A DNA stretch of 64,000 nucleotides, from NCBI GenBank assembly GCA_017311185.1, contig JAESUZ010005166.1, positions 124,001-188,000 on the forward strand, given 5' to 3'. The DNA comes from Proteles cristata cristata. Its lineage: Eukaryota > Chordata > Mammalia > Carnivora > Hyaenidae. The notes under the pieces are model-generated. The model saw nothing but the letters and a program-made list of their open reading frames with translations, ran no database searches and was not told the origin of the DNA. Positions 19,496-57,502 of this stretch are shown here, piece by piece; position 1 is the stretch's first letter; each line of letters starts with the position of its first letter. The translations under genes and the position numbers were made by a program.

Positions 19496-19660
19496 GGCTC
19501 AGGTCATGATCTCACAGTTTGTGAGTTCGAGCCCCACGTCAGGCTCTGTGCTGATAGCCTGGAGCCTGCTTCCGTTTCTGTGCCTCCCTCTCTCTCTGCT
19601 CTACCTCTGCTTGTACTCTGTCTCTCAAAAATGAATAAACATTAAAAAAAAAAAAAAAAA
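19496..19660 (+). mobile_element. Carnivore SINE, 5' end missing at duplication edge
   Basis: Starts abruptly at GGCTCAGGTCATGATCTCAC, lacking about 40 bases of head. It is the copied part of the SINE at 55776-55972. Confidence 0.93.
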
Positions 19661-19872
19661 GACTAGAATCGACCTCTTCCAAATTCCTAATAGCGCTGGT
19701 ATTTTGAGCTTTCCCCATGAATCATGAATGTTCTTCACGGCATCTAGGATGGTGACTCCTTCCCGGAAGGTTTTCAAGTTACTTCTACCAGATCCATCAG
19801 AGGAACCCTACCTATGGCACATATAGTCTTACAAAAGGGACTTCTTAGGCAAGAAGACTTGAATAAGAAATA

Positions 19873-20042
19873 GAGACGCCCGTGGGTGACTCAGTCGGTT
19901 GAGCATCCGACTCTTAATTTAGGACCAGGTCATGGTCTCTTGGCTCATGGGTTCAAGCCCTTTGTTGTTTGGGATTCTCTGCCTCCCTCTTTGCCCCTCC
20001 TCTGCTTGTGTTGTCTTAGAAGACTCTCAAATACATACAACA
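19873..20042 (+). mobile_element. Carnivore SINE inside Tigger1 copy 1
   Basis: Head GAGACGCCCGTGGGTGACTC, older subtype, tail CAAATACATACAACAAAC. Same insertion as 56189-56360. Confidence 0.88.
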
Positions 20043-20219
20043 AACGGGTCGTCATCAGAGGGAAGACGGGTGGGTGACAGGGATGAAATAAAGGGAATTA
20101 AGAGGATACATAACTTGAGGTGCACCGAGTAATGTACAGAATGGTTGAATCATTATACTGTACTCCTGTACCCTTGAAACTAGTGTAACACTGTACGTTA
20201 ATTATACTCCTAAAACAAA
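20043..20219 (+). mobile_element. L1-like 3' tail inside Tigger1 copy 1
   Basis: Begins GGGTCGTCATCAGAGGGAAG and ends in CCTTGAAACTAGTGTAACAC and AATTATACTCCTAAAACAAA, the pattern of an old L1 3' end. A decayed target duplication (AGAAGACTTGAATAAG and AGAGAACACTTGAGAG) brackets this tail plus the SINE before it. Same as 56361-56537. Confidence 0.65.
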
Positions 20220-20419
20220 CAGAATTAGCTAACAAAGAGAACACTTGAGAGTGGAAATGCCTCCTTGATCCGTGGGCTGCAGAACGGACGTTGTGTTAGC
20301 AGGCACGAGACGACGTTACTCCCACCGGCCAACTCCATCAGAACCCTGGTGTCATCGGACGCAGGGTCAGTAGTGACACTGCTTTGACAGGGAGCTTTCC
20401 TATTTCTGAGCAGTCCCAG

Positions 20420-20985
20420 CAGCGGCGGGAAGCCTTCAGGGCACCAGGCTGTGAGCACACCGCCGTCCTCCAGGCTTTGTCGCCACACGGACAGAGCAGG
20501 GCACGGCGGCTTCGCCGTCGCTGTGAAGGCCCAGGGCCTGGGAAGGGGCGACCAGGCGCCGCCACAACCTGCAAGTCACCGGCTGCATCCGCCGCGACCA
20601 GCCAGCCTGTCCTTGGAGGCCTCGAAGCCGGGTGCGGACTCCTCTCCAGCCACGCAAAGCGCTAGGCGGCATCTCCCTCCGGCCACGCGGGGCGCTGGCG
20701 GCGTCTCCTTCCGGCCACGCGGGGCGCGAGGCGGCGTCTTCCTGCTGCGGGAGGCTCGCGCCCCGCCCTGAAAACCCGCTGCTGAGCGCAGGCGCCGCCG
20801 GGGACGCCCGCGGAGACGCCCCCAGAACGCGCCGCAGCCCCTCCGTGTCCCTGCGCTGCCGCGTCCCGGCGACGCTTCCTTCCCGCCGCCTCCCGGAACC
20901 ACCCCCGCCCGCTTCAGACCCGGCCTCCGCGGCCTCCCCACCTCCCGCGGCCTCCACAGGATGCAGGAGTCGGGCCTCGCTCTGG
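20420..20985. other. GC-rich CpG-dense block in Tigger1 copy 1
   Basis: GC content rises abruptly from AT-rich intron to around 70-75% by eye, with close to fifty CpG in 20641-20940 by rough hand count, so CpG is not depleted. It meets the usual look of a CpG island but lies inside a transposon remnant in an intron, not at the RIC1 promoter. I see no TATA box or other promoter motif I could defend. Confidence 0.8.
20650..20747. repeat. 33-bp minisatellite, 3 units, in Tigger1 copy 1
   Basis: Three units of the same repeat as 56968-57264 (33, 32 and 33 bp). They correspond to the first and the last two units of the nine-unit array; the second has lost one base, which breaks the frame. Confidence 0.9.
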
Positions 20986-21654
20986 CTTCTCTGAAGGGAT
21001 TGTCCTGGCTTGTCTGGGCTTCTCTCCAGACACTAAAACGCTCCCCATGTCAGCAATGACGCCGTTTTGTTTTCTTACTCTTATCTGCTGTGTGTCACGG
21101 GGGCAGCACTCTTGACTTCCTCCAGGAGCTTTTCCTTCGCTGCCACAACTCGGCTGATTGGCACAACAGACTTACCTTTCAGCCTAGAAAGGCTGACATT
21201 CCTTCCTCAGTAAGTGTAATCATGTATAGCTTCTGATTGCAAGTGAGAGAAGTGTGACTTTTCCTTTCAGTTGAACACTTATAAGCCATTGTGAGGTTAT
21301 GAATGGCCCTGATTTCAATACTGTTTTGTCTTAGGGAAGAAAGAGACGTGGAGGACAGAGAAACGGCTGGTTAGTGGAGCAGACAGAATATACACAACAC
21401 GTATCAACTGAGTTTACAGTCTCACATGGGCATCTCAAAACAATCCCATTAGTGACATGAAAAATCACTGACGACAGGTCACCGTAACAATAATTTAGAA
21501 GTCTGAAATACTGCAAGAAATACCAAAATGTGATAGACATAAAATAAACAAGTGTTGTTTGGAAAAGGACACCAGTAGACTTGCTCAACACAAGGTTGCC
21601 AAAAACCTTCAATTTGTATTAAAAAAAAAGAGTATCTGTTAAGTACAAAGTGTG

Positions 21655-21697
21655 CCTATATATATAAATGTGTGTGTGAGTGTATACATATATATAA
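21655..21697. repeat. TA/TG simple repeat
   Basis: TATATATATA then GTGTGTGTGAG then TATACATATATATA, at the end of Tigger1 copy 1. Confidence 0.85.
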
Positions 21698-21800
21698 TGG
21701 GGTATTATTCAGCCTTAAAAAGTAAGGAAATGCTACAAAACGGATGAACCTTGAGGACATTATGATGGTAAATGCTATGTTTACCATAATCTAAAAAAAA
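21690..21800 (+). mobile_element. Short L1 3' relic
   Basis: GGGGTATTATTCAGCCTTAA and GATGAACCTTGAGGACATTA are L1 3' region landmarks. It follows a TA/TG simple repeat. Confidence 0.65.
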
Positions 21801-21947
21801 TGAAAATAATAAAGTTCAGTAATAGTCTAAAATATTATTATTCCAGAAAGCAGTGATGCATAATGTTAGTGGTTTTGTATCTTTAGAATCAAGTGTTAAA
21901 ATGATTTAGAATAAAGTTCACACAAACCTTTAAAAAGAGTTTCTGAG

Positions 21948-22152
21948 GGATACCTTGTAGGGTAAGCATCCAACTTCCGCCTAGGTCATACTCTTGTGGT
22001 TCATGAGTTCCAGTCCCACATCGGGCTCTGTGCTGACCGCTCAGAGCCTGAAGCCTGCTTTGGATTCTGTGTCTCCCTCTCTCTCTGCCCTTACACCACT
22101 CGTGCGCTTTCTCTCTCTCAAAAATAAATAATTAAAAAAATTTAATAAAAAA
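21948..22152 (+). mobile_element. Carnivore SINE, head diverged
   Basis: Head shortened (GGGATACCTTGTAGGG), then GCTCTGTGCTGACCGCTCAG, CT tract and AAAAATAAATAATT tail. Confidence 0.88.
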
Positions 22153-22259
22153 TGTTTGAGACAAGAATCTACATATCAAGACCGTTTTGAAAAATAAATC
22201 TGGTATGAGTGCAAAGGATGGATTTCTGTATGTAATAGAAAGGAAGAGAATGAGTTAGT

Positions 22260-23120
22260 AAATAAACTTTTTACTAACTGAGGCAAGGGAAGGCCAAAAA
22301 GGCACCTACCAGGACAAGGAGAGTGAAGCAGAGAAAGGCAAATTCTAGATATAATGATGACCTGTAATCAGTCAATTCAACTTGATTAGCAAACAAATAG
22401 GAGAAGTGAGAAAATAAAGATTCCAAGGTTTTCAACCTCATACAACTGTACAAAAGAGCATGGTAACTGCAAAAATGTTAGAAACACATCAGCCATGTTT
22501 GGCTTGGAAGGGAGAAAATGAGTTAGGCCGAGACATGACTCATTTGAGACTCCCTGCAGGGCCATCGAAATGGATTTGTCCCGGAAAGGTGAGCATGAAG
22601 CTCAAGAAAGTAGTACTAAACTAAAGAAACAGATCTGGATCTCATCCACATGTACTCGATAATTAAAACCAAGTAGAATATGTAGAAGAGAACTCAGAAC
22701 AAAACCCTAGGGAGCACCAAAGCATTACTGTGGGTACTATACAGTAATTGAAGGAGTTGATTTAATCCTGATGGTATCTTTATGAAGTAGAAAGCATTAA
22801 CTCTGTTAATAATGATAATTATCAGATGAGTAAAATAAAACTCAAACAAATAAAGCAACAAAATCCTGAAAGCTAAGGAAAACAATCGAAAATTTTTATG
22901 TAGGGAAAGGGCAAGTAAATTTTATGTTAACAAATACATTTGGAGGAAACTAAATTCTAGAACAGTATTACAACAATCCAGGAAAAAAGTGACAAACCCA
23001 AGCTAAAGCAGTGTTGCTGGGAATTAGGAAGAAGTAAAAGACACGAGAGATACACACAAGGTAGAGTACGTAAAATATAGAAAGCAGAATATACTGGATA
23101 TGATAGAGACTAGTTCCGAA
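22260..23120 (+). repeat. Diverged ancient interspersed repeat, family not named
   Basis: AAGATTCCAAGGTTTTCAAC and CAAAACCCTAGGGAGCACC belong to a common mammalian repeat I recognise but cannot name with confidence. 37500-37640 may be another piece (GGGGCCAGATCACAGTAGAT; GCAATGGGAAGCCACTGAAA). Confidence 0.35.
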
Positions 23121-23327
23121 GTTATCCAGCAGGAAAAGCAAATAAACTCAATTAAATGGTGGTACCATCTACAGAAAAAGGAAATTGGCCATAGGCTTTC
23201 CTAGGATTAAGTTATTTAAAAATCAGAACATAATTTTTCATTTTTCACACCTAATAAAAATTTTTTCCACTTTAAAGTTTTAAACTAGAAGTTATTATAA
23301 GACAGAACCTAAAATTTATTCACAATT

Positions 23328-23534
23328 TTTCTTTTTTAGAGACAGAGAAAGGGAGAGCATGCATGCATATGTGCATGAGCAGGGGAGGGGGAGAGGGACT
23401 GGGAGAAGCAGAGAGAATGTTAAGACGACACTGTGTGGAGCCAGACGGGAGACTCAATCTCATGACCTTGGAATCATGACCTGAGCCAAAATCAAGAGTT
23501 GGACACTTAACTGACTGAGACACACGGGCACCCC
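23328..23534 (-). mobile_element. Carnivore SINE, older subtype
   Basis: Reverse orientation, GA-rich start, CCAAAATCAAGAGTTGGAC box and GGGCACCCC head end. Confidence 0.88.
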
Positions 23535-24091
23535 TTTATTCATAATAATCCTACTTTCTTACTTGCTAAATCTCACCAATCCAGAAGCCTACTCCCCTCG
23601 TATGTTTTGTTCCTCATCTCTCTGAGATCATTTCAAATGTCATTTTCCCAGTGAAGACCCAGACTACTCTATTTCAAACTGTGTCTCCAACTCCCTAATG
23701 CCTTTCCCTACTTTATTTTTCTCCACAGAAATGATATCAGTTCACTTGTAACATACCTTCCTTAGTTATCACATCTACTAAAAGGGTGCAAGCTCTAGGA
23801 GAACAGTTTTTCATCTGGGTTTTTTTCTTCCTTTTCCCACCACAGCAGCATCACCAGCATCTACAACAGTTCTGACACATCACAAAATTCAAAACTTAAA
23901 TGAACAGATGTATGGATAAAAACAATTTTTTACAAGAGCTTTCTGAAAGATGTAGTATCCTTACCACTGGGCCTTTTATACACATACACACACAAAACCA
24001 CTGTGCTTATATTATCACACATTTAGAAAGCCTTCAGTTGGATTAGAACAATGTGACTTTCTCATTTGAGCAGATACTTTAACATTTCTAT

Positions 24092-24314
24092 GATTTTTTT
24101 TTTAATGTTTTTTTTATTTACTTCTGAGAGAGAGAGAGATAGTGTCAGCAGGGAAGAGTCAGAGAGAGAGGGAGACACAGAATCCGAAGCGGCTCCAGGC
24201 TCTGAGCTGGCTGCCAGCACAGAGTCCACCGCGGGGCTCGAACCCACAAACCGTGAGATCATGACCTGAGCCGAAGTCGGATGCTTAACCGACTGAGGCA
24301 ACCAGGCGCCTCCA
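24092..24314 (-). mobile_element. Carnivore SINE
   Basis: Reverse orientation: T run, GAGAGAGAGAGAT, GAGATCATGACCTGAGCCGA, head end CAACCAGGCGCCTCC. Confidence 0.93.
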
Positions 24315-24479
24315 TAATTCTTTAGATTCAGGTTCCAGTGTTAGAAATGTGGCCAACAGGGGAGTAGTTTTCGGTGCCCAGAATTTATATACAGTTACAC
24401 TGCCATCAATGTCATTAGTAAGTGCTTATGCAATTATCATGTAAGCTAACAGACACATAAAATATGTAAACTTCAATAC

Positions 24480-24560
24480 ATATGTACATTTACAGAATAT
24501 ATACATACTGAATATACAACAGCATATTACATATATACTGAGTATATACATACTGAAATC
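24480..24560. repeat. AT-rich short tandem repeat
   Basis: Imperfect repeats of ATATATACATACTGA (at 24498, and again at 24542 after ACTGAGT). Confidence 0.7.
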
Positions 24561-24895
24561 AAATGACACATGTAATATTTTGAGAAGACCTAAGGGAATA
24601 AAAAATGTCAAGATAACTAACATACTTTTCAAGTTTATAAAATGAATTTAGAACAAGGTGCACTATTAGAAATAATACTCTAAAGCTATAGAACCTGAAT
24701 GGAAAAAAGCAGTTAAGTTTGTTTTCCAGAAAACACTGGAAAATGTTGGGGGAAATGTTGGAGGAAACTTTTACAACTGTAATTCAGATCTTTTCTCCTC
24801 CAAATGTGATGTAATTTCAGTAAAATTTCTGTCCCTTAAATGTTACAGGATTTTTGAAAGGGCAAGTTGTGTTGAGATTAGAAAATGTGAACCTC

Positions 24896-25115
24896 GGGGC
24901 ACCTAGGTGGCTTGGTCAGTTATGCATCCAACTTCGGCTCAGGTCCCCATCTCAGAGTTTGTGAGTTCGAGCCCCATGTACTTCTCTGTGCTGATAGCTC
25001 AGAGTCTGGAGCCTGCTTTAGATTCTGTGTCTCTCTCTATCTCTGCTCCTCCCCCATTCACATTGTCTCTCTCAAAAATAAACAAACATTAAAAAATTAA
25101 AAAAAAAAAAAAAAA
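24896..25115 (+). mobile_element. Carnivore SINE
   Basis: Head GGGGCACCTAGGTGGCTTGG, CT tract, AAAAATAAACAAACATT tail and long A run. Confidence 0.94.
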
Positions 25116-26239
25116 GACAACCTAAACATCAAAGAGCTATCCCGTTCTTGCTTCCCACCTGACACTAGTTCTTTAAGTCATCCGGTAAAAAGTCTGAAAT
25201 CTAATACACTAAGTTGGGGGTGAGGAAAAGGAAATGAGAAGTTGAGTTTTTATAGTTCTTTTGGAGGATTTTTTCAGTGAAGATCATCTGTATATTTTTA
25301 ATATTTGATAATTAAATTTACTGAATTTTAGAACAATTAATTCTTTTTCTTAATAGAACTCTGTCCTTAGGAAGGCTGGTCTCTCACAAAAGAGGTTGAC
25401 AGAGTGGAAAGACAGAATAAAAGAAAAAATCTCTACTCTCAACGAAGTATACATTATGCTGAGGTATTTGTTTCAATGATTTTTATTATGATAAAATTAA
25501 ATGATTTGCAGGTTTAAGATCTACTAAACTCATATGTAAACATAAACAAATGAAAACATTCTAAAGCTAAACACAAGTTATTTCTGATTTATCCCTGGCA
25601 GAGTTTCCTCCATTACTTCCAATGCCAGTTCCAAGACATGAAAGAAAAAGCCAAGATGACCTTTAGTGGAGAGTCCATCCACTGGTCTGTGTAGCTCACA
25701 TGAAGGGACATTTTAATACAGAATAAAATGCACAAAGGCACAAAAGATGAAAGAGGTGAAACATTTATTAATCGAAGAAATAAATGACCTCTGACAGTAA
25801 AGAGTCATTTGATAAGACTGTCACCAATGCTAAAGGCCGACTCAAAGCATCGCCAGGAAGGATGCTGGAAACACTATGTGGAAACTACAAAACATGTTCT
25901 CAGGTGGAGCATAATGGAAAATGACACGCAGGCTAAGGTTAAGATGCTGTCGCATAATACAAGGAAGCTGAGATACTCTAGGAAAACTTACGTGATGAAC
26001 TCATGAAATGTAGAGAAGACAAGGGACGACAGTGTTTCTATAACAGCAGAATACAACTAACTACTGCCTCAATTACACTGCTGCTACTCTTCAGAACTAC
26101 TACATATAAACCACTTCAGATTCTTGGTCCTACTGTTGACTCCCTACTCCCCAAATAAACACCAAGCTAACAGGTGACTAGATGGGCATAAATAAGTTGG
26201 CACAGTAAAGTATCAGTCGCTAAGAGAAATATACTATTC
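25116..26239. other. Intronic stretch, unclassified
   Basis: 1.1 kb between two SINEs with nothing recognised. Confidence 0.6.
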
Positions 26240-26432
26240 GGGCACCTGGGTGTCTCAGTCGACTGAGGCCTCTCAATTTCAGCTCAGGTCATAATCTCAT
26301 GAGTTTGTGGATGTGAGCCCCTCATCGGGCTCCACACTGACAGTACAGAGCCTTCTTGAGATTCTCCCTCTCTCCTTCTCTCTCTGCACCCCACCCATCT
26401 TTCTCTCTTGATAAATAAACTTAAAAAAAAGT
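26240..26432 (+). mobile_element. Carnivore SINE
   Basis: Head GGGCACCTGGGTGTCTCAG, box TCTCAATTTCAGCTCAGG, CT tract, GATAAATAAAC tail. Confidence 0.92.
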
Positions 26433-26439
26433 TATAAGC

Positions 26440-26612
26440 AACAAGACTTATGTCTGAATCATGGCCATGCCACTTCCTCGTGTGTGACTATCGATTGGTC
26501 AGTTACTTAGCCTCTCTGTGCCTTGGTAATTGTACCTAACTACCTCACAGGGTTGTTACAGGATTAAATGAATTCGAAAAAGGGCTCAGAACACTGTGCC
26601 ACTGTGCTTACA
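26440..26612 (+). mobile_element. MIR SINE relic
   Basis: TCAGTTACTTAGCCTCTCTG and CACAGGGTTGTTACAGGATT are sense MIR landmarks. Confidence 0.8.
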
Positions 26613-26689
26613 ATGGCACAGATGGTGATGATGATACACTGTCAAAACTACATTTTTAAAACTCTCCTCAAATCCATGTATGAATCACT

Positions 26690-26880
26690 TTCCCAAGTTT
26701 TAAAAACATCAACTCCTATAATCCTCCAAACAAATGAAGAAAAAATATTCTTATTCCCATTTTATAAATAGGTTCTACAGAAAATCTAAGGAACTAACCA
26801 GGCTAAGTAACCTGACTACAGCAGTCCAGCACTCAAATACACAAGCGGATTCTAATTTGTTCTGCTCTGCAAAACTGTTG
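26690..26880 (-). mobile_element. MIR SINE relic
   Basis: CTTATTCCCATTTTATAAAT and GGCTAAGTAACCTGACTACA resemble antisense MIR. Confidence 0.6.
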
Positions 26881-27109
26881 CCCTGTAAGATATGTTGTTT
26901 GAGTTTATGTACCAATTACTAGAAGTTAAACTGGGAAACAATTACATTATCAAGTGAAATATTAAAAAGCTAAAACTCACTTAACATAGACATACAAAAT
27001 ATGATTTGCACATTAAATCGCTTTTTATATATTTATACATACAAAATCGCTTAAAATATTAGAAACAAAGTAAAAGTTTGGTGAAGGAAAAAGTATTTGA
27101 TAATAGTAT

Positions 27110-27335
27110 TAACAGCAGCTATCCTTTATTAAGTTTCTCACAAGCTAGGAAGCTATGTAAGCACTTAACATGCATGATCTCATGTAATCCTATGAAATAA
27201 TTACTATGGTTATCTTACTGTACAGATGAGGAAACTGAGGTTTGGAAGGTATTAAATAACATGATAGAAGTTACACAGCCGAAAAGAGGAAGAATAGACA
27301 TTCAGTCCCAGGTCTACAGGACGTCAAAGCCTAGA
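27110..27335 (-). mobile_element. MIR SINE relic
   Basis: CAGATGAGGAAACTGAGGTT and GAAGTTACACAGCCG are clear antisense MIR landmarks. Confidence 0.82.
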
Positions 27336-28550
27336 CCTAGTACACATTTTATTGAGCCACAAACTAAAACCCATATAGTCAACAGAGAGGAAGAAAGCCC
27401 ACACTTTAAAAAAATAAAATGTGTTTTATTTAGTTCTCTAGCCTATAAACTGTCAAACAGAGCAAAGTTCATGCACTATCAGAACTACTACTCAGTTAAG
27501 GGGTGTCCTCTCTTAATATTTTTTAAATAATAATTTTTTAAAACCCAGAAACTATCTTTACATAGTCAAAGTGTAGGTTTCTAAAAAATTTATTTTTAAT
27601 GTTCTGAGCTACTAGTGTTTAGTTTGCGTTACTAATTAACACAAGTTTCTTTTGTGTTTGTTAGTTCTATTTCCTCTTAGGAGATTACTTTTACCTATTT
27701 ATCTTTTAAAAATCTTTGTGTTTCTAAGTAGTTTGCTCCTTAAAATATAAGATATATTTTATACATAAAATATATTTTATAAAATTTACAAATAGAAAAT
27801 TGGTCCTCTTTACTGAAAAAAACTTTCCCCAGTTACGTTTAACGTTTTTCTTTTTTTTTCTGTTAATTTTCAGAAACTTAAACTTTCATATGATGAAATG
27901 TATTTTCTGTCTAATTTCTTACATACCTAATAAACTCTGGCCATCTTCTACCATCTAGAAATGTGATAAGTATTCATTTATACATTCACCCAGCTTTAAT
28001 GGTTTGATCTTTTGCTTTAAAATTAGGATGTTCTTTTATTTCAAAAGTTCTTTCAAAAAATGTTCTTTTATTTCCGAAGTAAGGCAAAAATCTTAAGGAC
28101 AAAAATGCAAAGCATACACAACAACACAGTTTAAAGATCAAGTTCTAACGAAGAGATAACCACTGCTTGGGGTATACTTTTTTTCTATGCATGTATAAAA
28201 ATATACAGGAAAAAGTGCCAGTAACTTATACTGACACTTCATTTCTTCCCCTCCTGATGTTTTAGCTCCTCCCTAGTAAGGCCTAGAGAATGCTAGAGTG
28301 TATTAGTAGTGATTCTGAATGTCCAAGAAGGGATACAGTACATTCACCCAAGATTCCCAGAATTATTTACTTAGAGAATTCTTTATTGAAATAATGATAG
28401 TTCGGAGACCTTGTTATTTTTGATATACGATTTTTAAAATACTGGCCTGGCTTTATTTTATTCACTTCAGACAATGCAAAACTGGGATATTTTTATGAAT
28501 ATAAAGTGTATGCAAGTCAATTGTTAAAAGAATGAAAGACAATGAACTTA

Positions 28551-30207
<1,657 letters not shown>

Positions 30208-30617: not shown

Positions 30618-30635
30618 ACACACACATGTGCGCAT

Positions 30636-45155: not shown

Positions 45156-46954
45156 CTATAAACCATAACCACATGAAATAAAAACTGGATTCTCAATATT
45201 AAAAAATTTGTTTTATTTTCTCTTCTGTATATGCATTTTATCTCTCCAAACTGAACACAGGAATAATTTCTTCTAACTTCTCTGTTTTCTTAGTACTTAG
45301 TACCATTCCAAAGGTTAATAAATTAACATGTGATTATTTTTGCTCTAAAAATAAAGCTAATAGACTATTTTCTCTTTACTAGGATATAGGGGCTATCTCT
45401 AGTTATCTCTTCCCGGGTGTGGCATACATAGGGCAGGAGAACAGTGGCCCAAAGTGTAAGAGCTCCATAAAGATGTTAAGGGGTATTGGCTATGGAATGG
45501 TTGGTCTGCATATCCAAGATGTACTACACAGGTCAATCCTCTACTATCTCTAGAAATTGCCTGGCCTTGGGAGGGGCAGTCTTTCCAAGGTCAACAAGGC
45601 CTCAAGATGATAAAGCATCATATATACACAAATATAAAAAAGGATAATTATTTTTTTGAGTGTGACTCTTAGTTTATTTATTATATGTTTATTTTTGTGT
45701 TTCCTATCATCAAAATTGATTGTAAAGGTTTTTCTATTAATGCTGGCCTGTAATGAGATCTTACATATTCATTTTTGAAATGTCTTTTCACACAAGTAGT
45801 ATCAATCCATGAGCACATGATTTTAACTGAATACAGTCATCAACTAGTAGGTAAGTACACAAGTCTACCAGACTCTTCTGATGTTTGTCGCTATAAATCA
45901 TTTTAAATTGAAGGGTGGTTGAAAGCATTCTTCATTTGTACAATTAAGTGGATTGTGAAATGTGCACATCTCCTTTACAATTGCATCAAGTTCTGAAATA
46001 TACTACTGGAACTCAGTATGAGCTCAGAAAACATACCTATTGCTAATTTTTGTTGGGAAAACAGGTGTTACTTTTTAACTTTTGACAGCAGTAGAAACAC
46101 AAAAAGCAGCCTGACACTGTGATTCAAAGAACATTAGCTGTCACCAAAATGACTTGACCACATGTAAATCTCTCACACACAAGCATTGTTTTGTAGATTT
46201 GACTGAATCCATGTAGAAACATTACTAAGCCTATAGCAAAAATTATCTATCAAATCATTCAGTATCTAGTAAGTGCTTAAGGTGGTTCTCCAAGTTCAAA
46301 AAATTTTCAGTCTCACCCCAATGTAAAAAGAATTCACAATAAACCTTTACCACTGACTACTAAGATGTCAAAGACCTGTGGAGCTTGGCAAGTGAGGATT
46401 TCCAGCTTCTATTTCTAAAAACATAAACTGGCCATAGGCATTAAACACTTCTATGTGCGCTAGGTTTTGTAAACTGCCCAACTAAGCCTTTTACCGCTTC
46501 TCGTATATTTTGTCGCTATCAGTTAAAACACACCTTAGTGTACTCTACTCCAGGTTGTACTGATTAGTGTTTTCGCAACTTCATAAAAATCTTTTCACCT
46601 GAAGTTCTCCCATACGTGTTACTTACAAGGGTTAATTCTCAGTCATTTCACACTCTACAATGACTCTTCAAATACACAGAGCAGGACTATAACATTTCTA
46701 AATTCATCAAAAAAGAGCTAAACTTCCTTTGGCTGTACCTTCATTTTCATTTTTTATTATTGTTAAGATATGATTTTAAATTTTCTAATTTTTCTATTAA
46801 TTTCAATGAGTTGGGAATACTGTGATAAATACTAAGCTAGATAATGTCAACTTTTATTGTCTTTTTTTTTTGGCTTTGCTATAGGGTCACTGCATAATTA
46901 AGACAATAATTCTCCATTTAATCCAGTAAGGTAATCCACACTCCAATGTAACTT

Positions 46955-47175
46955 TTAAATGTTTTTAAATGTCTATTTTTGTGAGAGAAAGAAAGGAGAG
47001 GGAGAGAAAGAATGAGTAGGGGATGGGCAAAAAGCAAAGGAGACACAATCCCAAAGAAGCTCCAGGCCTGGAGCTGTCAGCACAGAGCCTGATGTGGAGC
47101 TCGTACCCACGAACTGTGAGATCATGACCTGAGCCCACATCGGACGCTTAACCGACTAAGCCACCCAGGTGCCCC
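46955..47175 (-). mobile_element. Carnivore SINE
   Basis: Reverse orientation, head end CCACCCAGGTGCCCCC; target duplication CACTCCAATGTA on both sides. Confidence 0.94.
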
Positions 47176-48698
47176 CACTCCAATGTATTTTAAAACCATG
47201 ATATTCAAAACCTGTTTTCCTCTTCTTTTCTTCTTTTGATGTGATAGGTATGCACTAGTAATAAAAATTATACAAAACATCACTGTATGGCAACATGTGT
47301 GGCACTTGAGACACGTTATTTATAAAAGTCTTACGATCATTTACAGTGTGCGCTGAGCAAAAACGAGATGAAGTGTCACATATGGTTGCTGTCAGGACTA
47401 CCTGACTCAGCTATTGCAGCTTGAAAGCAGCTATAGAAATTATGTAAATAAACTAGCATTTTCATATTCCAACATTACTTATGGACAATGAAATTTAGAA
47501 TTCATTCAATGATGGAAGATACACCTAAATAACAGGCACATTAGTACAACTAACTCAGAAAACCACCTGAATACTGGGAAGACAGATTTTCCACAGCTAA
47601 TCAGAGAGAAGACACATCAAAAAGGGTAGGAGGGGTGGAGACTTCAGTGGGAACCAAACCCCCAGCGCTGACTAACCACAAATGGGAGAGTCACTCTAAG
47701 TATGGAGAAAGGAGAGAAGCAGACCTCACACCACGAACCTCAGGCACAGAAGACCTGTTCAAGGAAGAGGAGCCCCTGTAACACCTGGTTTGGAAACCTG
47801 CAGGGCTTAACTTCAGGTACTTTAAAACTGGCTTAGACTTAGCTCTGGAAGAAGTGGAGGGTAACAGGAGACTGAATTACTGCCCTTAAAGAGCCAGCCT
47901 AACAAACAAGCCCAAGGAGATACAGCACAGAAACAGCAGTCTGAAAAGAGCCTGGGATGTACAGAGGCACATGTATTAATCTCGGAACATGTGCTGAAGG
48001 GGCAGGAATCTTTAGGAGACCTGTCCAAGAACAAAGGGCTGGTGGACACCGCTTCTCTACTCCCCACCCCGGCGTAGATAACCTGACACTTGGAGACATC
48101 AGCCTGAACAGACTCCACCGCTCTACCTCCCTGCCCAGTCCCTGCCCAACCCATCAGGGCTCCTGCCCAAACACGCCCCACAAACCGTCCAGCAGGGACG
48201 AGTGCCACTCTGAAGTGATGCCTGCTCTGGAGAGCGTGGGAAAGAACCACACACACTAGTGCGACTACAGCCCCGGCAGACACGTATTGGGGCAAACATC
48301 TATTTGCCTGCGGGCCCTGCCCACAAAGGAAAGCATCTGAGGGGCAATATAGGGATGGCACCCTGCAGTTTGGTGCAGCTGAAGATCGAGCAGATGGGCT
48401 GAGGACAGGTCTCTGGTCTGACTGCTGACACCACCCAATAAGCCCATGGCAGCCCCAGAACGGCTCTTTAACAGCTCAGGGACCACGCCGTGTCCAGTGC
48501 ACCTACAACAGGCAGCATGGGCCACTCACTGCAGCAGCCTGGACTGGAAGTGAACATGGCCCAGCCAGGCCAGTGGGGTGCATGCCACCCTCACAGCAAA
48601 CACCTGTGAAATGCCTGGTTCTGATAAACAGGGGACACTGTGCTAGTGGACACCACAAGGTCTTTTCTTCTTAAGGCCACTACTTTCAAGATGAAGAG

Positions 48699-48895
48699 AT
48701 ATAGGTGGCTCAAGTCGGTTGAGCATCGGACTTTAGCTCAGGTCACGACCTCACGGTTCACGAGTTCGAGCCCCACATTGGGCTCTGCACTGACAGCACA
48801 GAGCCTGCTTGGGATTCTATCTCCCTCCCTCTCTGCCCCTAGCCCACCTGCTTTCTCTCTTGCAAAAGATAAAAATAAGCTTAAGAAAATAAAGA
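48699..48895 (+). mobile_element. Carnivore SINE, inside L1
   Basis: Head partly lost (ATAGGTGGCTCAAGTCGG), then GCTCAGGTCACGACCTCACG, CT tract and A-rich tail. Confidence 0.9.
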
Positions 48896-49141
48896 ATGGG
48901 TTCAAACTTAAGTGACTATCACCTTAATTAAGACTATCATATGCATAAGATACTACATGCGTCTAATGATAACTACAAATCAAAAACTTATGACACACAA
49001 AAAATAAAGAGAAAGGAATCAAAGCATATTATTAAAAAAAGACATCAAACCACAAGAGAAGAGAGCAAGGGAAAAACAGAAGAGAAAAATGAAACAACCA
49101 TAAAACAAGTAACAAATGGCAGCAAGTACACATCTAATGAT

Positions 49142-49288
49142 TTAGAGAGACAGAAAGAGCAGAGGAGGGGCAGAGAGAGAGAGGGAGAGAAAATCCCAAG
49201 CAGGCTCTGCGCTGTCAGCACAGAGATCACAACCTGAGCAAAAATCAAGAGTCTGATGCTTAACCCACTGAGCCACCCTGACACCCCA
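49142..49288 (-). mobile_element. Carnivore SINE, internally deleted, inside L1
   Basis: Reverse orientation, GAGAGACAGAAAGAGCAGAG start, central deletion, head end GCCACCCTGACACCCC. Confidence 0.88.
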
Positions 49289-49342
49289 ATAATTACTTTA
49301 AATGTAAATGGAATAATGCTCTAATCAAAAGATATTGGCTGA

Positions 49343-49522
49343 GGGGCGCTGGGGTAGTTCAGTCATGATCTCATGGTTCATAAGTTCGAGCCCTGTATCA
49401 GGATCTCTCCTGCCAGCACAGAGCCAGCTTTGGATCGTTGGTCCTCCTTTCTCTCTGCCCTTCCTCTGCTTGCTCTCCCTCTCTCCTTTCTCTCTCAAAA
49501 ATAAACAAACATATAATAAATA
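49343..49522 (+). mobile_element. Carnivore SINE, inside L1
   Basis: Head GGGGCGCTGGGGTAGTTCAG, head deletion, CT tract, AAAAATAAACAAAC tail. Confidence 0.9.
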
Positions 49523-51112
49523 AACTAAGAGTCACACTCAAAAAAATTTTTTTTCAAAGATACTGATTGACTGGATGGATAAAAAGCAAGATCCATCTCT
49601 ATGCTGCCTAAAGAAGACTCCCCTGAGACCTAAAGACACATGCATATTCAAGGGGAAGGATGGAAAACCAGTTACATGCAAACATAAGTGAAAAGAAAGG
49701 TGGGGTACCAATACTTATACATCCAACAAAACAGATATTAAAACAAAGGCTCTAACAAGAGACAAGGGATACTACACAATGATAAAGGGAAGGATCCAAA
49801 AATAGTATATAACAATCATAAATGTTCATGCATCTAATGTGGGAGTGCCTAAGTTCATTAAGCAACCATGAACAGACATAAAAGAAAAAACTGATGGTAA
49901 TGTAATAAATGGCAAGGGACTCTAACACCCTATTTACATCAATAGATACAACATCCCAATAGAAAAACAAAAAAAAATAATGGCTTTGAATAACACATTG
50001 GGCCATAGGAACCTAAGAAATGTATTCAAAATGTTCCATCCAAAAACAACAGATTACACATTCTTTTCATGTACATGTGGAACATTCCCCAGAATAGCTC
50101 ACCCTTGAGGCCACAAATTTCAGTAAATTAAAAAAAAGATTGAAATCATACCATGCATCTGACCATAAGGGAACAGAAAATTAAAAATCAATCACCAGAA
50201 AAAATCTAGAAAGCACACAAATACATGGAGGTTAAATAACAAGGTACTATATACTGAATGGGTCAATAAAGAAATCAAATAGGAAATCAAAACATATATG
50301 GAAACAAATGAAATTTAAGAGATCTCTAGATGCAGCAAAAGCTATTCTAAGACATAAGATTATAGCAGTATCAGTCTACCTTAAGAAACAAGAAAAATCT
50401 CAAATTAACCTTATGTATAGGAAAGAGGGAAAGAACAAATAAAACCCAAAGCCAGTAGTAGGAAATAAGTAATAAAAACTAGAGCAAAAATAAATAAGAC
50501 TAAAGAAACCCAAAAGAAAGGTCAATGAAACCAAGAGCTGGTTCCTTGGTTCTCTGGAAAGATAAACAAACTTATAAACTTTTATCCAGACTCATCAAAC
50601 AAGAGAGAGAACTCAAATAACTAAAATCAGATGAAGGAGAAGTAATAACTGATACCATAGAAATACAAAGGACTGATTACAAGAGAATATAAAAAATGAC
50701 ATGCCAATAAAATGGACAATTTAAAGGAAATGGACACATTCCTAGAAATATATAACCCTTCAAAACTAAATGAGGAAAAAATCCAAAGTCTGAACAGATC
50801 AATTACTAAAAAGAAAATGAATCAGTAATCAAGAAACTCCCAACAAACAAAAAAATCCAGAACCAGAAACCTTCACAGGTAAACTCTACCAGTTACAGAC
50901 AAGTTAATATTCTTTCCAAACTATTCCAAAAAACAGAAGAGGAAGGGAAGCTTCCAAACTTATTATCTAACAGTAGCATTACCCAGATACAAAAAGTACA
51001 TAAAGACATTATGAAGAAAGAAAATTAGACCACTACCTCTGATGAACATATATGCAAAAATCCTCAACAAAATACTGACCAACTGAATCCAACAAGAAAT
51101 GTTGGTGGGGAG

Positions 51113-51330
51113 AGGGCACCTGGGGGGCTTAGTTAGTTAAGCATTCAACTTCATTCTCAGGTCATGATATCACAGTTCATGAGTTCAAGCCCCGCACTGG
51201 GCTCTGTGCTGACTGGTCAGAGCCTGGAGACTTCTTTGGATTCTCTCACTCTTTCTGCCCCTCCCCTGGTCATGCTCATGTTCTCTCTCTCTCTCTCTCA
51301 AAAATAAATAAACATTAAGGAAAAAAAAAT
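51113..51330 (+). mobile_element. Carnivore SINE, inside L1
   Basis: Head GGGCACCTGGGGGGCTTAG, CT tract, AAAAATAAATAAACATT tail; AAATGTT repeated in the flanks. Confidence 0.92.
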
Positions 51331-53639
51331 GTTAGAGGGAATTTCTTTAAATTAAAAAAAATCATTCACCACCCATCAAGTGGGATTTATTCCAGGGACC
51401 CAGGGTGGTTGAATATGCCCAAATCAATCAATGTGATGTATCATATTAACAAGAGAAAGGATAAAATCACATGATCATCTCAAAAGATAGAAAAGGAATT
51501 GGAAAACATACCACATTCATGTATAATAAAAACTCTCAACAAAGAAATTTTAGAGCAAACATACCTCAACATAATTAGGACCTTAAATGAAAAATCCACA
51601 GCTAACATCATTTGCAACTGGGAAAAATAGAGTTTTTCCTTTAAGATCAGGGACTAGACAAAACTGCCTGCTCTCACCACTTTTATTCAACGTAACAGTC
51701 AAAGATCTAGCCATAACAATAAGAAAAAGAAAATCCAAAATACTAAAGTAAAACTTTCACTATTTGCAGATGACATACTATATATAGAAAACCCTCAAGA
51801 CTACCAAAATACTACAAAAGAACTGATAAATGAATGCAGTAAAGTCATATGATGCTAAATTAACATTCAGAAATTTGTATATCTCTACATTAATAACGAA
51901 GCAGAAAAAGAAGAAAACAACCCATTTACAATTGCACTAAAAAGAATAAAATACCTAAGATTAAACTTCACCAAGGAGGTGAAAGTCTTGGACTATGAAT
52001 ACTAGGAAGCACTGACGAAAGTAACGGAGGATGACACAGATGGAAAGACATGCCATGCTCATAGGTTGGAAGAAACAATGCTGTTAACGTGCCAATAATG
52101 CCCAAAGCAATCTACAGACTTAATGCAATACCTAACAAAATATCAACAACTTTTTTTTTTTTTTTTTTTACAAAGCTAGGATATATAATCCTACAATTTG
52201 TATAGAACTGCAAAGGACCATGAGTAGGCAAAGCAATCCTGAAAGTGAGGAACAAAGATGGAGAGATCACAATCCCAGACTTCAAGATATACAATGAAGC
52301 TGTAGTCATCAAAACAGTACAGTACTGGCAGATAAACACAGAGATCAACAGAACAAAGAGTCCAGAAATAAGCCAATAATTATATGGTCAATTTATTTAA
52401 GAAGGAGGTAAAAACATACAAAGGAGAAAAAGACAAATGATGCTGGGAAAACTGAAGAGCTACACACAAAAGAATTATACTGAACTACTTTTATACACCA
52501 TTATAAAAACTTAAAATGGATTAAAGACTAAATGTGAGACCTGAGATCATAAAATTTCTAGGTAAACAACATAGGAAGCAATTTCTAACTTTGGCCGAAT
52601 AATCATTTTTCTCAATTATCTCCTCTGACAAGGGAAATGAAAGTAAAATGAAACTATAGAGACTAAACCAACACAAAAAGCTTTTGGTCAAAGGAAGGAA
52701 ACCATCAACAAAACAAAAGGGCAATCTACTGAATGGGAGAAGATATCTGCAAATGATCTATCTGATAAGGAGTTAATATCCAAAATATATAAAGAAGTTC
52801 TAGAACTCAGTAACTTAAAAAAAAAAAACAACTTAACTTATACAACTCCATTCAAAACCCCAAGTAATGCAATTAAAACTGGGCAGAGGACTTGCACAGA
52901 CATTTTTCCAAAGAAGACACATATAAAACAGACATGAAAAGGTTCTCAACATGACTAACCATCAGGGAAATACTAATCAAAACCATAATGAGATACTTTA
53001 CACCTGTCAGAATGACTGGAATCAAAAACAAAAAAGGCCCTACCCCTGAAGCCATCTTATGAACTGTCATATGCCACCTGAGGCTCCAGTAAAAACAAAA
53101 ATAGGCAAAGCAAACAAAAACACAAGAAATAATAGAGGGTGAGGGTATGGAGAAAAAGGAACCATCATGCACTTCTGGTGGGAACTGAAACTGGTGCAGC
53201 CACTATGGAAAACAGTGTGGATATTCCTTAAAAAATTAAAAATAGAATTCCCATCCGATCTACTAACTCCACTTCTGTGCATTTACCCAAAGATTACGGA
53301 AACACTCATTTGAAAAGATATATGCACCCCTATGTTTACTGAGTCATTATTTACAACAGCCAAATTATGGAAGCAACTCAAGTATTCAACCCTAGATGAA
53401 AGGATAAAGAAAATACGGTGTGTCTGTGTATATATACATGTCTGTACATACATATATATGTGCAAAGTAGTATCAGCCATAAAAATGACTGAAATCTTAC
53501 CATGTGTCACAATACAGATGGAACAAGAATGTATTATGCTAAGTAAAATAAGTCAGAGACAAATACCGTTATGATTTCACTCAAATGTAATAATTTTAGA
53601 AACAAAACAAATAAAGAAAAAAGAAAAAAAAACAGACTT

Positions 53640-53856
53640 TTTATTTTTTACATGTATTTATTTTTGGGGAAATGAGTGAGACAGAGCATAAGTGGGGGAG
53701 AGGCAGAGAGAGCAGGAGACATAGAGCCTGAAGCAGGCTCCAGGCTTCAAGCAAGCACTGAGCGCAGAACCCAATGTGGGCCTTGAACCCATGAACCGTG
53801 AGATCACGATGTGAGCTGAAGTTGGTCACTTCACCAGTTGAGCCACCCAGGTGCCC
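53640..53856 (-). mobile_element. Carnivore SINE, inside L1 3' end
   Basis: Reverse orientation: TTTTTATTTTTTACATG start, GGCAGAGAGAGCAGGAG, head end GCCACCCAGGTGCCC. Confidence 0.92.
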
Positions 53857-54074
53857 TAAAAAAAGACGCTGGAGAACTAGTGGTTGCCACAGAGGAGGTG
53901 TGCAGGGAGGATGGGTGAAATAGATAAAAGGGGATGAAGAGAACACTTATCTTGGTGAGCAATGAAAAATGTAGAGAACTGAATAACTATTTTGTGCACC
54001 TGAAAATATAACAATGTATGTTACTTATACTTCAATTAAAAAAAATTCATACAACTTTCAGATGTCAAAAATAT

Positions 54075-54800
54075 TATTTCTGAGAGTAACCTTTTGCACT
54101 GCTGATGCAGCCATTGCAAACCGATGCAGCCATTGCAAACCGATGCAGCCATTCTGGAAAACACTGTGGAGTTTCTTCAAAAAATTAAAAATAAAATTAC
54201 CCTACAATCCAACAATTGCACTATTAGGTATTTATCCAAAGGATACAAGAGTGCTGATTCATAGGGGCGCATGTACTCCAACGTTTATAGCAACACTATC
54301 AACAATAACCAAATTATGGAAAGACTGCAAATGCTCATCAAATCATGAGTGAATGGATTAAAGATGATATAGGTATATAATGGAATACTATTCACCAAGA
54401 AAAAGAATGCAATCTTGCCATCTGCAACAACATGGATGGAACTGGAAGGTACTTTGCTAAGTGAAATTAGTCAGAGAAAGAAGACGTATGTTTTCACTCA
54501 TATGTGGAATTTGAGAAACTTAACAGAGGACCATGGGGAAAGGGAAGGAAAAAATAGTTACAAGGAGAGAGGGAGACAAACCTTAAGACACTGAGAACAA
54601 ATGCAGAAAACTAAGGGTTGACAGGAATGGGGGCGGGGGGGCACGGGAAACGGATGATGAGCACTGAGGAGGGCACTTGTAAGAAAGAGCACTGGGTGTT
54701 GTATGTAAGTGATGTATCATGGGAATCTACTCCTGAAGCCAAAAGCACACTGTATACTCTGTATGTTAGCTAATTTGAGAATACATTATAAAAAAAAATA
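54075..54800 (+). mobile_element. L1 3' end, 5'-truncated, inserted at the end of another L1
   Basis: ORF2 end to 3' UTR (GAGCACTGGGTGTTGTATGT; AATACATTATAAAAAAAA). Flanks share TTATTTCTGA. Intermediate in age. Confidence 0.82.
54103..54152. repeat. 20-bp tandem repeat, 2.5 units, in L1 ORF2 end
   Basis: GATGCAGCCATTGCAAACC is repeated twice and followed by GATGCAGCCATTCTGG, a local duplication in the L1 at 54075-54800. Confidence 0.92.
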
Positions 54801-55775
54801 CATGTATATGTTATTTCTGATTTTTTAAATAATTTAAATATGTTGAACTAGTCTTAGTTCACTGTCCTTACAAACACAGGCAGGAGGGTAGAGCTGGTAC
54901 GTAGTTGGTAGTCTGTAGAAGTAACGAACTATTTAATACTGTGATCATGTGGATCATTTTCCAATGATTATCTGGTCAGTATTACATAGCAGACTAAAAA
55001 ATGGACAGAAAGCAGAGAGATAAGTTAATTCAGAAGTTAAGAATAGAGACATCCTTCTGAGATAGTGCATCTACAGTTTCAGAACACTTCAGTAGTGAAT
55101 TTCCCAATAAGCCCAAGTCAGATGAATTTTTTGGTATTCCAGTGCATATAAAGTTACATTCACTAAACACTGTGGTTTTTTAGAACTGCAAGAGCATTAT
55201 GTTTACAAATACAATGTACATACTTTAATTTATCAATATTTGATTGTCAAAAAAAATGCCAACTATCATCTGAGCTTCAGCAGCTAGAGAATTTCTTGCC
55301 AGGGATGGCTGCTGACTGAACAGGGTGGTCGCTGTGGCAATTTCTTACAATAAAACAATAACAGAGTTTGCTGCCATCGACGGACTCTTCCTTTCACGAA
55401 ACTCTCTGCAGCATAGAGTGCTGCTTGATAGCATTTTACCCACAGAACTTCTTTCAAAATCAGACCCAATCCTCCTAAACCCTGCTGCTGCTCCATCAAC
55501 CTAGCTGATGGGACATTCTCAATCAATCCTTCGTGGTCATTTCGACGGTCTTCACAGCACTTTCACCAGTGGTAGATCGCATCTCAGGAAACCACTTTCT
55601 GTGCTCATCCATGCGCAGCAACTCCTCACCTGCTCGTTTATGACACTGCAGCAGTTCTGTCCCATCGTCAGGGCCCACTTCCAATCCTAATTCCCCCGCT
55701 GTTTCTACCACATCTGCATCTACCTCCTCCCCTTGTCTCAAACCTCTCAAGGTCATCCATAAAGACTGGAATCGA

Positions 55776-55972
55776 GGGGCACCTGGGTGGCTCAGTCAGT
55801 TGAGTGGCCGACCTCGGCTCAGGTCATGATCACACAGTTTGTGAGTTCGAGCCCCATGTCAGGCTCTGTGCTGATAGCCTGGAGCCTGCTTCCGATTCTG
55901 TGCCTCCCTCTCTCTCTGCTCTACCTCTGCTTGTACTCTCTCAAAAATGAATAAACATTAAAAAAAAAAAAA
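55776..55972 (+). mobile_element. Carnivore SINE inside Tigger1 copy 2
   Basis: Complete head GGGGCACCTGGGTGGCTCAG; perfect target duplication AAAGACTGGAATCGA. Its 3' four-fifths recurs at 19496-19660. Confidence 0.96.
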
Positions 55973-56188
55973 AAAGACTGGAATCGACCTCTTCCAAATT
56001 CCTAATAGCGCTGGTATTTTGAGCTTTCCCCATGAATCATGAATGTTCTTCACGGCATCTAGGATGGTGACTCCTTCCCGGAAGGTTTTCAAGTTACTTC
56101 TACCAGATCCATCAGAGGAACCCTACCTATGGCACATATAGTCTTACAAAAGGGACTTCTTAGGCAAGAAGACTTGAATAAGAAATAA

Positions 56189-56360
56189 AGAGACGCCCGT
56201 GGGTGACTCAGTCGGTTGAGCATCCGACTCTTAATTTAGGATCAGGTCATGGTCTCTTGGCTCATGGGTTCAAGCCCTTTGTTGTTTGGGATTCTCTGCC
56301 TCCCTCTTTGCCCCTCCTCTGCTTGTGTTGTCTTAGAAGACTCTCAAATACATACAACAA
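56189..56360 (+). mobile_element. Carnivore SINE inside Tigger1 copy 2
   Basis: Same insertion as 19873-20042, directly followed by an L1-like tail. Confidence 0.88.
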
Positions 56361-56537
56361 ACGGGTCGTCACCAGAGGGAAGACGGGTGGGTGACAGGGA
56401 TGAAATAAAGGGAATTAAGAGGATACATAACTTGAGGTGCACCGAGTAATGTACAGAATGGTTGAATCATTATACTGTACTCCTGTACCCTTGAAACTAG
56501 TGTTAACACTGTACGTTAATTATACTCCTAAAATAAA
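56361..56537 (+). mobile_element. L1-like 3' tail inside Tigger1 copy 2
   Basis: Counterpart of 20043-20219 with a few single-base differences (CACCAGAGG against CATCAGAGG; GTGTTAACAC against GTGTAACAC). Confidence 0.65.
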
Positions 56538-56739
56538 CAGAATTAGCTAACAAAGAGAACACTTGAGAGTGGAAATGCCTCCTTGATCCGTGGGCTGCAG
56601 AACGGACGTTGTGTTAGCAAGCACGAGACGACGTTACTCCCACCGGCCAACTCCATCAGAACCCTGGTGTCATCGGACGCAGGGTCAGTAGTGACACTGC
56701 TTTGACAGGGAGCTTTCCTATTTCTGAGCAGTCCCAGCA

Positions 56740-57502
56740 GCGGCGGGAAGCCTTCAGGGCACCAGGCTGTGAGCACACCGCCGTCCTCCAGGCTTTGTCG
56801 CCACACGGACAGAGCAGGGCACGGCGGCTTCGCCGTCGCTGTGAAGGCCCAGGGCCTGGGAAGGGGCGACCAGGCGCCGCCACAACCTGCAAGTCACCGG
56901 CTGCATCCGCCGCGACCAGCCAGCCTGTCCTTGGAGGCCTCGAAGCCGGGTGCGGACTCCTCTCCAGCCACGCAAAGCGCTAGGCGGCATCTCCTTCCGG
57001 CCACGCGGAGCGCGAGGTGACATCTTCTTCCGGCCACGCAAAGTCCTCGGAGGCATCTTCTTCCGGCCACCCAAAGTGCTAGGTGGCATCTCCTTCCAGA
57101 CACTAAGAGTGCGAGGTGGCATCTCCTTTCGGACATGCACAGCGCTAGGCGGCATCTTCTTCTGGCCACGCAAAGTCCTCAGCGGCATCTCCTTCCGGCC
57201 ACGCGGAGCGCGAGGCGGCGTCTCCTTCCGGCCACGCGGGGCGCGAGGCGGCGTCTTCCTGCTGCGGGAGGCTCGCGCCCCGCCCTGAAAACCCGCTGCT
57301 GAGCGCAGGCGCCGCCGGGGACGCCCGCGGAGACGCCCCCAGAACGCGCCGCAGCCCCTCCGTGTCCCTGCGCTGCCGCGTCCCGGCGACGCTTCCTTCC
57401 CGCCGCCTCCCGGAACCACCCCCGCCCGCTTCAGACCCGGCCTCCGCGGCCTCCCCACCTCCCGCGGCCTCCACAGGATGCAGGAGTCGGGCCTCGCTCT
57501 GG
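56740..57502. other. GC-rich CpG-dense block in Tigger1 copy 2
   Basis: Same composition as 20420-20985, plus the longer minisatellite. The block ends sharply near 57502; the next bases of the same transposon (57503-58143) are AT-rich. Compared with Tigger1 as I know it, the changes are mostly A to G and T to C (for example GAAGCTGCAGAAG has become GAGGCCGCGGAGG). Confidence 0.82.
56968..57264. repeat. 33-bp minisatellite, 9 units, in Tigger1 copy 2
   Basis: Nine consecutive 33-bp units, each starting like CCACGCGGAGCGCGAGGCGG and ending near CTTCCGG. On the minus strand each unit encodes 11 residues of the type MPPRTLRGRKK or TPPRAPRGRKE. These align with a single 11-residue stretch of the Tigger1 transposase just before the PGFEASKDRL motif, so the array is an expansion of transposon coding sequence. 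Units differ from each other by several bases; the third and seventh are especially alike, hinting at higher-order copying. Because the unit is a multiple of three the frame stays open, producing a spurious 234-codon ORF. Confidence 0.93.

Follow-up and report, generated by a model that had tools for sequence, protein, structure and literature searches.

How two stretches of DNA lying 36 kb apart, in the same orientation, could share a nearly identical core while the older sequence around them has clearly diverged is the question raised by a window of the Proteles cristata cristata genome, by which we mean the whole stretch of 64,000 nucleotides analysed here (positions 124,001 to 188,000 of contig JAESUZ010005166.1, forward strand). 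Copy 1 of the core (19496-20985, plus strand) is composed of a left-truncated SINE (SINE1), a Tigger1 piece, an insert made of a second SINE (SINE2) and an L1 tail, GC-saturated Tigger1 sequence and about 3 minisatellite units, and copy 2 (55816-57502, plus strand) matches it in content but has about 9 such units. We take these elements to be Tigger1 and their ancestral sequence to be that of an assumed, approximate Tigger1 consensus; the names SINE2 and L1 tail are likewise presumptive. With the array (20635-20745; 3 substitutions and one 199-bp indel) left out of the count, 8 substitutions and 4 small indels, one of the latter a poly-A length change, separate the copies over 1379 usable copy 1 bases. 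Alignment by BLAST and by a global method gives 98.0% identity over the 1229 columns pairing 19496-20720 with 55816-57039, and homology runs on from there through the minisatellite to 20985/57502. All 12 counted differences are confined to the left 807 bp; the right 572 usable bp, with their 61 CpGs, have none, and this clustering has a P value of 0.014 for substitutions and of 0.0016 when indels are added. Inspected by eye against the assumed consensus, the change at 19665 is private to copy 1 and that at 20302 to copy 2.

The right limit of the core is a seam (20985/57502), a single homologous Tigger1 position where full identity (100%) gives way to about 70%. Beyond it lie the Tigger1 5' arms of copy 1 (20986-21640) and copy 2 (57503-58130), both on the minus strand and with approximate right ends. 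Of 613 three-way columns, in an alignment that takes in 20 bp of core, 189 (31%) differ between the arms, and each arm departs by 23-24% from the assumed consensus. Exact matches between the two reach at most 19 bp, and their identity is about 69%. The copy 1 arm alignment contains 11 indel events in total, among them a gap at the seam itself, since copy 1 is without 6-7 bp at precisely this point, with GG, by eye, as the most that could be an overlap. Outside the elements, a BLAST comparison of 19000-22500 with 54000-59500 yields only short matches in SINE-like sequence, and this lack of matching flanks, together with the 31% divergence between the arms, indicates that the two loci arose independently and that their identity does not come from a recent duplication of the whole. 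Much of this agrees with the initial annotation of the locus, which had counted about a dozen differences outside the minisatellite, listed the shared SINE, SINE/L1 tail and Tigger1 content (all present in both copies, the SINE being cut short in copy 1) and seen both copies go on as Tigger1 at the homologous position. Its estimate that the arms are about a quarter apart was right as to divergence and somewhat low, and the edge that it called seamless does lie within 7 bp of the homologous position, the missing 6-7 bp of copy 1 being the exception. Conversion was to be superfluous if the arms proved as similar as the core, and at 31% they are not. A high-identity core that on its right ends homologously against such arms supports the non-allelic copying between Tigger1 copies proposed there, and homology-guided copying between non-allelic loci appears, from the sequence, to be well supported.

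A second property of the core is its base composition. Its right part is GC-saturated in copy 1 (20380-20985; 73% GC, CpG observed/expected 0.90) and in copy 2 (56698-57502; 70% GC, CpG observed/expected 0.91), and where the windows of the assumed consensus have about 40% GC, this part of copy 1 has reached 73%. Relative to that consensus, the five windows within 20385-20951 sum to 176 W>S changes at 300 sites (~59%) and 7 S>W changes at 202 (~3.5%), as compared with 36/267 and 55/197, respectively, in the distal arm of copy 1. Measured against an assumed consensus, this clustered W>S excess with an S>W deficit is the pattern by which GC-biased gene conversion is recognized. In both copies the change point that fits the bias best coincides with the seam, at 57504 in copy 2 (2-lnL support 57492-57506); the support in copy 1 is broader (20961-20990), and hence a gradient of bias is possible there. 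Nor is the bias confined to the shared core, since it extends left into copy 2 DNA that is absent from copy 1 (55485-55774; W>S 43/170, S>W 13/116). The zero differences in the right half of the core may themselves result from GC-biased conversion purging S>W mutations rather than from a newer event. A recent second conversion of this half is not claimed as their sole reading, given that GC bias would itself eliminate the majority of S>W changes newly arising in it.

The arms carry signals of their own. Over the 180 bp of the copy 1 arm nearest the seam, private changes number 16 W>S versus 2 S>W, whereas the distal part has 23 of each kind (P 0.0045). With the cut set at 120, 150 or 165 bp, P becomes 0.29, 0.036 or 0.017, respectively, and we regard this as moderate evidence for private GC-biased changes in that arm. 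The copy 2 arm shows no private GC bias beside the seam, and total bias does not differ significantly between arms (P 0.34, 0.11 and 0.059 for 100, 150 and 190 bp). The two arms also have derived changes in common: within the first 180 bp, 14 of 168 sites bear shared derived non-CpG changes where 3.4 are expected (about fourfold, a count reached in 0 of 20000 shuffles), and 10 of these 14 are W>S. In copy 1 coordinates this stretch is 20986-21165, with 21092-21112 as one place where such changes occur. The distal arm is also above chance, with 14 of 369 against 7.0 expected (twofold, P 0.005), and part of the shared signal may hence stem from a subfamily or from errors in the assumed consensus; near and far arm differ in this respect only with P 0.036 or 0.068.

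The repeats embedded in the core help to place the copying in time. SINE1 occupies 55761-55987 in copy 2 (plus strand), flanked by 15-bp target-site duplicates (55761-55775 and 55973-55987), and only its 3' part is found in copy 1. It lies 11-14% from the consensus of 14 length-filtered SINE copies of the window and its own two copies differ far less, so that the last copying is much younger than SINE1. The older shared insert of SINE2 and L1 tail interrupts the Tigger1 alignment at 19864-20239 in copy 1 (plus strand) and at about 56179-56557 in copy 2. The minisatellite, situated inside the right half of the core that is otherwise free of differences, does differ between copies: on the plus strand, it spans 20639-20743 in copy 1, where 3.2 units grown from a Tigger1 segment are reported with period 32 because one unit lacks a base, and 56957-57256 in copy 2, with 9.1 units of 33 bp and a period of 99 also reported.

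On the left, unlike at the right seam, copy 1 has a non-homologous edge, where the core is cut within SINE1; the initial annotation does not mention it. An inverted 97-bp insert (19397-19493, minus strand), 94/97 identical to 17392-17488 (plus strand), is joined there to the left end of the core through 2 nt, GA in direct reading (19494-19495, plus strand), which may be filler or slippage. Microhomology, judged by eye, is about 0 bp at 19396/19397, and the 2 nt stand as filler at the other junction. A junction insert copied from another site is a feature of break-induced replication with template switching (MMBIR), and its template, about 1.9 kb left (upstream) of the junction at 19396, falls inside the resection range of about 2 kb that a study of meiotic-break structural variants gives (PMC7615360). 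Copy 2 holds SINE1 with both target-site duplicates and also a Tigger1 3' half (55141-55773, minus strand; BLAST of the assumed consensus 3' half against the window), a half found in copy 2 only, and copy 1 is thus the damaged side on the left.

The account that we favour, and to which we give about an even chance, is that interlocus gene conversion between two old Tigger1 copies, inserted independently of each other, gave rise to the core, most likely in several rounds. After a break within the core or close to it, the other copy would have served as the repair template, and mismatch repair favouring G/C would have left the core's right half saturated in GC, with a minisatellite growing out of a Tigger1 segment. 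Tracts would usually end at the seam, since the arms beyond are too diverged to pair, and the boundary would return there each time. On the left of copy 1, end-joining repair may have removed a former Tigger1 3' half, cut SINE1 and inserted the inverted 97-bp piece, for which the flank of copy 1, at a distance of about 1.9 kb, would have been the template. As a tentative extension of this account, the two dispersed DNA-transposon fossils might have been in long-term concerted evolution, biased conversion producing a GC-saturated core that is a better substrate than the diverged arms, so that the boundary fixes itself and a self-reinforcing 'conversion island' results, together with a minisatellite and a new CpG-rich block.

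Among the alternatives, the single event from copy 2 into copy 1 put forward by the initial annotation survives best, and we consider it doubtful. A broken end in the 5' arm of copy 1 would have copied leftwards from 57502 to 55816 in SINE1, switched to the inverted 17392-17488 and been end-joined at 19396, with loss of the 3' half of copy 1. Such an event would yield both edges at once, including the template-switch insert on the left, and the completeness of copy 2 (both SINE1 duplicates and the 3' half), the damage on the left of copy 1 and the seam gap with its possible GG overlap, reminiscent of a repair scar, do favour copy 1 as the recipient. Nonetheless, the bias pattern of copy 2, supposedly an untouched donor, changes at the seam, which a mere donor should not show, and neither the private GC bias in the copy 1 arm (16 W>S versus 2 S>W in 180 bp) nor the excess of derived changes shared by the arms fits a single transfer. 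The proposed priming in the 5' arm is not supported either, for the poor homology of the arms offers at most the 19-bp exact match, and sequences of about 69% identity are too diverged for efficient homologous recombination in mammals. The reverse direction, in which the GC-saturated core of copy 1 was copied once into copy 2 up to 57502 and the left half of copy 1 was later lost by end joining with the 97-bp piece as a snap-back insert, seems unlikely: it would account for the sharp bias edge in copy 2, for the private bias in the copy 1 arm and for a left junction resembling end joining with a locally templated insert, but it requires two events, the seam gap sits in copy 1 and not in copy 2, the change point of copy 1 also lies at the seam, and the shared derived arm changes are left unexplained. 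That both cores derive from a third Tigger1, GC-rich and located elsewhere in the genome, would explain a bias edge at the seam in both copies, but this is very improbable, as two separate transfers would have had to end at the same base and to carry SINE1 and SINE2/L1 alike. Within the window, neither half of the assumed consensus revealed a third Tigger1, other matches having E values of 0.13 or worse; the match nearest to the GC-rich bin 48001-48500 is a weak one of 35 bp (47850-47883, E 0.13), and no Rfam family matched over 47000-49000, around that bin. Plain segmental duplication, already dismissed in the initial annotation, or an assembly duplicate, suggested by the high identity, spacing and common orientation, is scarcely credible and was rejected because the core ends on the right no more than 7 bp from the homologous Tigger1 position instead of joining unrelated sequence and the flanks are unmatched beyond SINE-like hits, with at least one private change per copy (by eye) also counting against it.

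Searches of the literature on Tigger elements, minisatellites and interlocus or GC-biased conversion in mammals returned no report of this locus. What was found on Tigger1 and minisatellites concerned cancer transcription, what was found on Tigger and conversion concerned pig interferons, and other matches gave background. If the favoured account of recurrent GC-biased conversion is true, ordinary dispersed repeats can remain conversion partners long after their flanks diverge, and an AT-rich transposon can become a CpG-rich block through nothing more than GC-biased repair. It would also serve as a warning that internal divergence is not always usable to date repeat copies. GC-biased interlocus gene conversion between duplicated sequences is reportedly described, to go by their titles, in papers on histone and Hsp70 genes. 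Conversely, the title of Assis and Kondrashov 2012 declares non-allelic conversion not GC-biased in Drosophila or primates, and it counts against our reading. The sharply bounded pair described here would thus provide a natural test of whether mammalian non-allelic conversion is GC-biased, a matter on which that title and a paper on the human Y palindrome P6 (PMC3723533) disagree.

In P6, according to that paper, fixation is GC-biased, the mean tract is 2068 bp and the arms have 38.8% GC versus 37.0% in the spacer (PMC3723533). As in P6 and, presumably, the histone and Hsp70 genes, non-allelic copies are here kept similar by what appears to be conversion, with a W>S excess in the converted part; unlike there, the pair consists of old DNA-transposon copies at dispersed sites instead of long duplicates, and the increase in GC far exceeds the P6 contrast. 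The locus resembles structural variants at meiotic hotspots (PMC7615360) in its locally templated insert, with a template within about 2 kb, and in its changed tandem repeat, whereas its junction overlaps are only 0-2 bp. Concerted evolution, according to a review (PMC3924837), persists where copies pair and ends where divergence or insertions block pairing. The same would hold here, with a core kept alike and a tract that ends at diverged arms, but the pair that evolves in this manner is not a gene duplication: it consists of two interspersed repeats of separate origin.

The two Tigger1 copies, 36 kb apart, share a core (19496-20985 in copy 1, 55816-57502 in copy 2) that proves as near-identical as the initial annotation proposed. 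Pairwise BLAST alignment yields 98.0% identity over 1229 columns, with homology then running through a minisatellite to the right edge, or seam, at 20985/57502. Across the 1379 usable copy 1 bases outside this array, the cores are separated by 8 substitutions and 4 indels; the array's own 3 substitutions and one 199-bp indel are not counted here. In windows running rightwards from the seam, the identity of the Tigger1 5' arms is 71, 81, 67, 65, 67, 67 and 41% per 100 columns (the seventh window having only 78). A three-way alignment with a working Tigger1 consensus, which may contain errors and which we take as the ancestor, comprises 613 columns: 384 unchanged, 86 changed in copy 1 only, 83 in copy 2 only, 40 with shared changes and 20 different in all three. 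This puts the divergence between the arms at 31% of columns, rather than the rough quarter first estimated, and that of each arm from the consensus at 23-24%, as expected of old insertions that arose independently.

At copy 2 almost all of a Tigger1 survives in antisense, with its 3' half at 55141-55773 (BLAST with the 3' half of the working consensus) and its 5' arm running from the seam to about 58130. Inserted inside it is SINE1, an element common to both cores and presumably of feliform type, flanked by 15-bp target-site duplicates (55761-55775 and 55973-55987). Copy 1 consists only of the core, which begins within SINE1, and a 5' arm that ends near 21640; for the 3' half of the consensus, BLAST found nothing there but weak 15-bp matches (E 5.3). 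At 22 of 156 sites in copy 2 and 13 of 116 in copy 1, SINE1 departs from a consensus built from 14 other SINEs in the window, yet up to 19644 its two copies are separated by just 3 substitutions and 2 indels, so SINE1 long predates the most recent copying between the loci. The minisatellite (56957-57256 in copy 2, where it was also found with period 99, and 20639-20743 in copy 1) arose by expansion from a part of Tigger1 that we take to be coding; its first unit, through which BLAST aligns the consensus, is by eye the closest to it. Another repeat, a perfect 19-bp tandem of 2.6 copies, occupies 54104-54153, in what by eye resembles the 3' region of an L1.

The core edges differ in nature. At the left of copy 1, 19397-19493 is an inverted copy (94/97 identical) of 17392-17488, a template 1.9-2.0 kb from the junction, and is linked to the SINE1 fragment through the two bases GA. 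Rather than a boundary set by homology, this edge is a scar of end joining or template switching, and the 97-bp inverted pair, 1.9 kb apart, marks templated repair. A study of meiotic breaks describes structural variants that involve template switching and end joining and whose sizes are enriched within the ~2 kb range of resection (PMC7615360). The scar may stem from the core transfer or from a separate event. The right edge does fall at the homologous Tigger1 position, but it is not quite the seamless edge first described: exactly there 6-7 bp are missing from copy 1, a gap that resembles the scar of a repair and speaks for copy 1 as the recipient.

In both cores, Tigger1 DNA has become a block rich in CpG (20380-20985 and 56698-57502; observed/expected about 0.9), in a window of 38% GC; in copy 1 the block holds 72 CpGs in 606 bp (0.90, versus 0.32 for the window). 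Stop-free frames of up to 249 codons cross these blocks, probably a consequence of how seldom stop codons occur in GC-rich DNA. When the window is cut into 128 non-overlapping 500-bp bins, GC exceeds 50% only in the cores and at 48001-48500 (58%), which has no Rfam match and where a minus-strand frame of 217 codons without a stop begins at 48475. Relative to the working consensus, five windows across 20385-20951 (one spanning the array, with 40 gap columns) show A/T to G/C (W>S) changes at 176 of 300 A/T sites and the reverse (S>W) at 7 of 202 G/C sites, compared with 36/267 and 55/197 in copy 1's distal arm. In a two-state change-point fit, the bias of copy 1 ends at 20987 (2-lnL support 20961-20990) and that of copy 2 at 57504 (57492-57506).

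Further signs come from beyond the seam, where the measure most robust to errors in the working consensus is that of private changes, counted only where the other copy matches it. For W>S, copy 1 has 16/82 in its first 180 arm bases and 23/188 distally; for S>W it has 2/51 and 23/111 (direction P 0.0045). The corresponding copy 2 figures are 8/73 and 28/192 for W>S, and 10/60 and 28/116 for S>W (P 0.79). The copy 1 value varies with the cut (0.29, 0.036 and 0.017 at 120, 150 and 165 bp), and total bias compared directly between arms is not significant (P 0.34, 0.11 and 0.059 for 100, 150 and 190 bp), so that the apparent private GC bias in copy 1's near arm offers moderate evidence. Shared derived non-CpG changes number 14 at 168 sites of the first 180 bp (3.4 expected; reached in 0 of 20000 shuffles), or 11/147 without 21092-21112 (3.0 expected), and 14/369 distally (7.0 expected, P 0.005); contrasting near with far sites directly gives a weak difference (P 0.036 or 0.068, depending on the alignment option). 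Within the core, all 12 counted differences fall in 19496-20302, leaving the 572 usable bases further right free of them (P 0.014 for substitutions, 0.0016 with indels), although strong GC bias would by itself suppress new S>W differences there.

Conversion-type copying between the two loci, as initially annotated, is well supported. A one-off transfer leaves something unexplained in either direction. The single copying from copy 2 into copy 1 originally put forward agrees with the gap at the seam and predicts the bias edge in copy 1; it makes the edge in copy 2 a coincidence and does not explain the private bias in copy 1's arm. The opposite transfer predicts the copy 2 edge, but makes that of copy 1 a coincidence and explains neither the gap nor the shared arm changes. 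Repeated GC-biased exchange explains most signs: exchange between the copies would recur, and divergence beyond the seam would act as its barrier. Against it count the extension of W>S bias into copy 2 DNA absent from copy 1, and the disputed GC bias of non-allelic conversion, a title among the references of PMC3723533 stating that it is not GC-biased in Drosophila and primates. Non-allelic conversion in the human Y palindrome P6 is reported to be GC-biased (PMC3723533), and a review describes conversion as continuing until substitutions or insertions disrupt pairing (PMC3924837).
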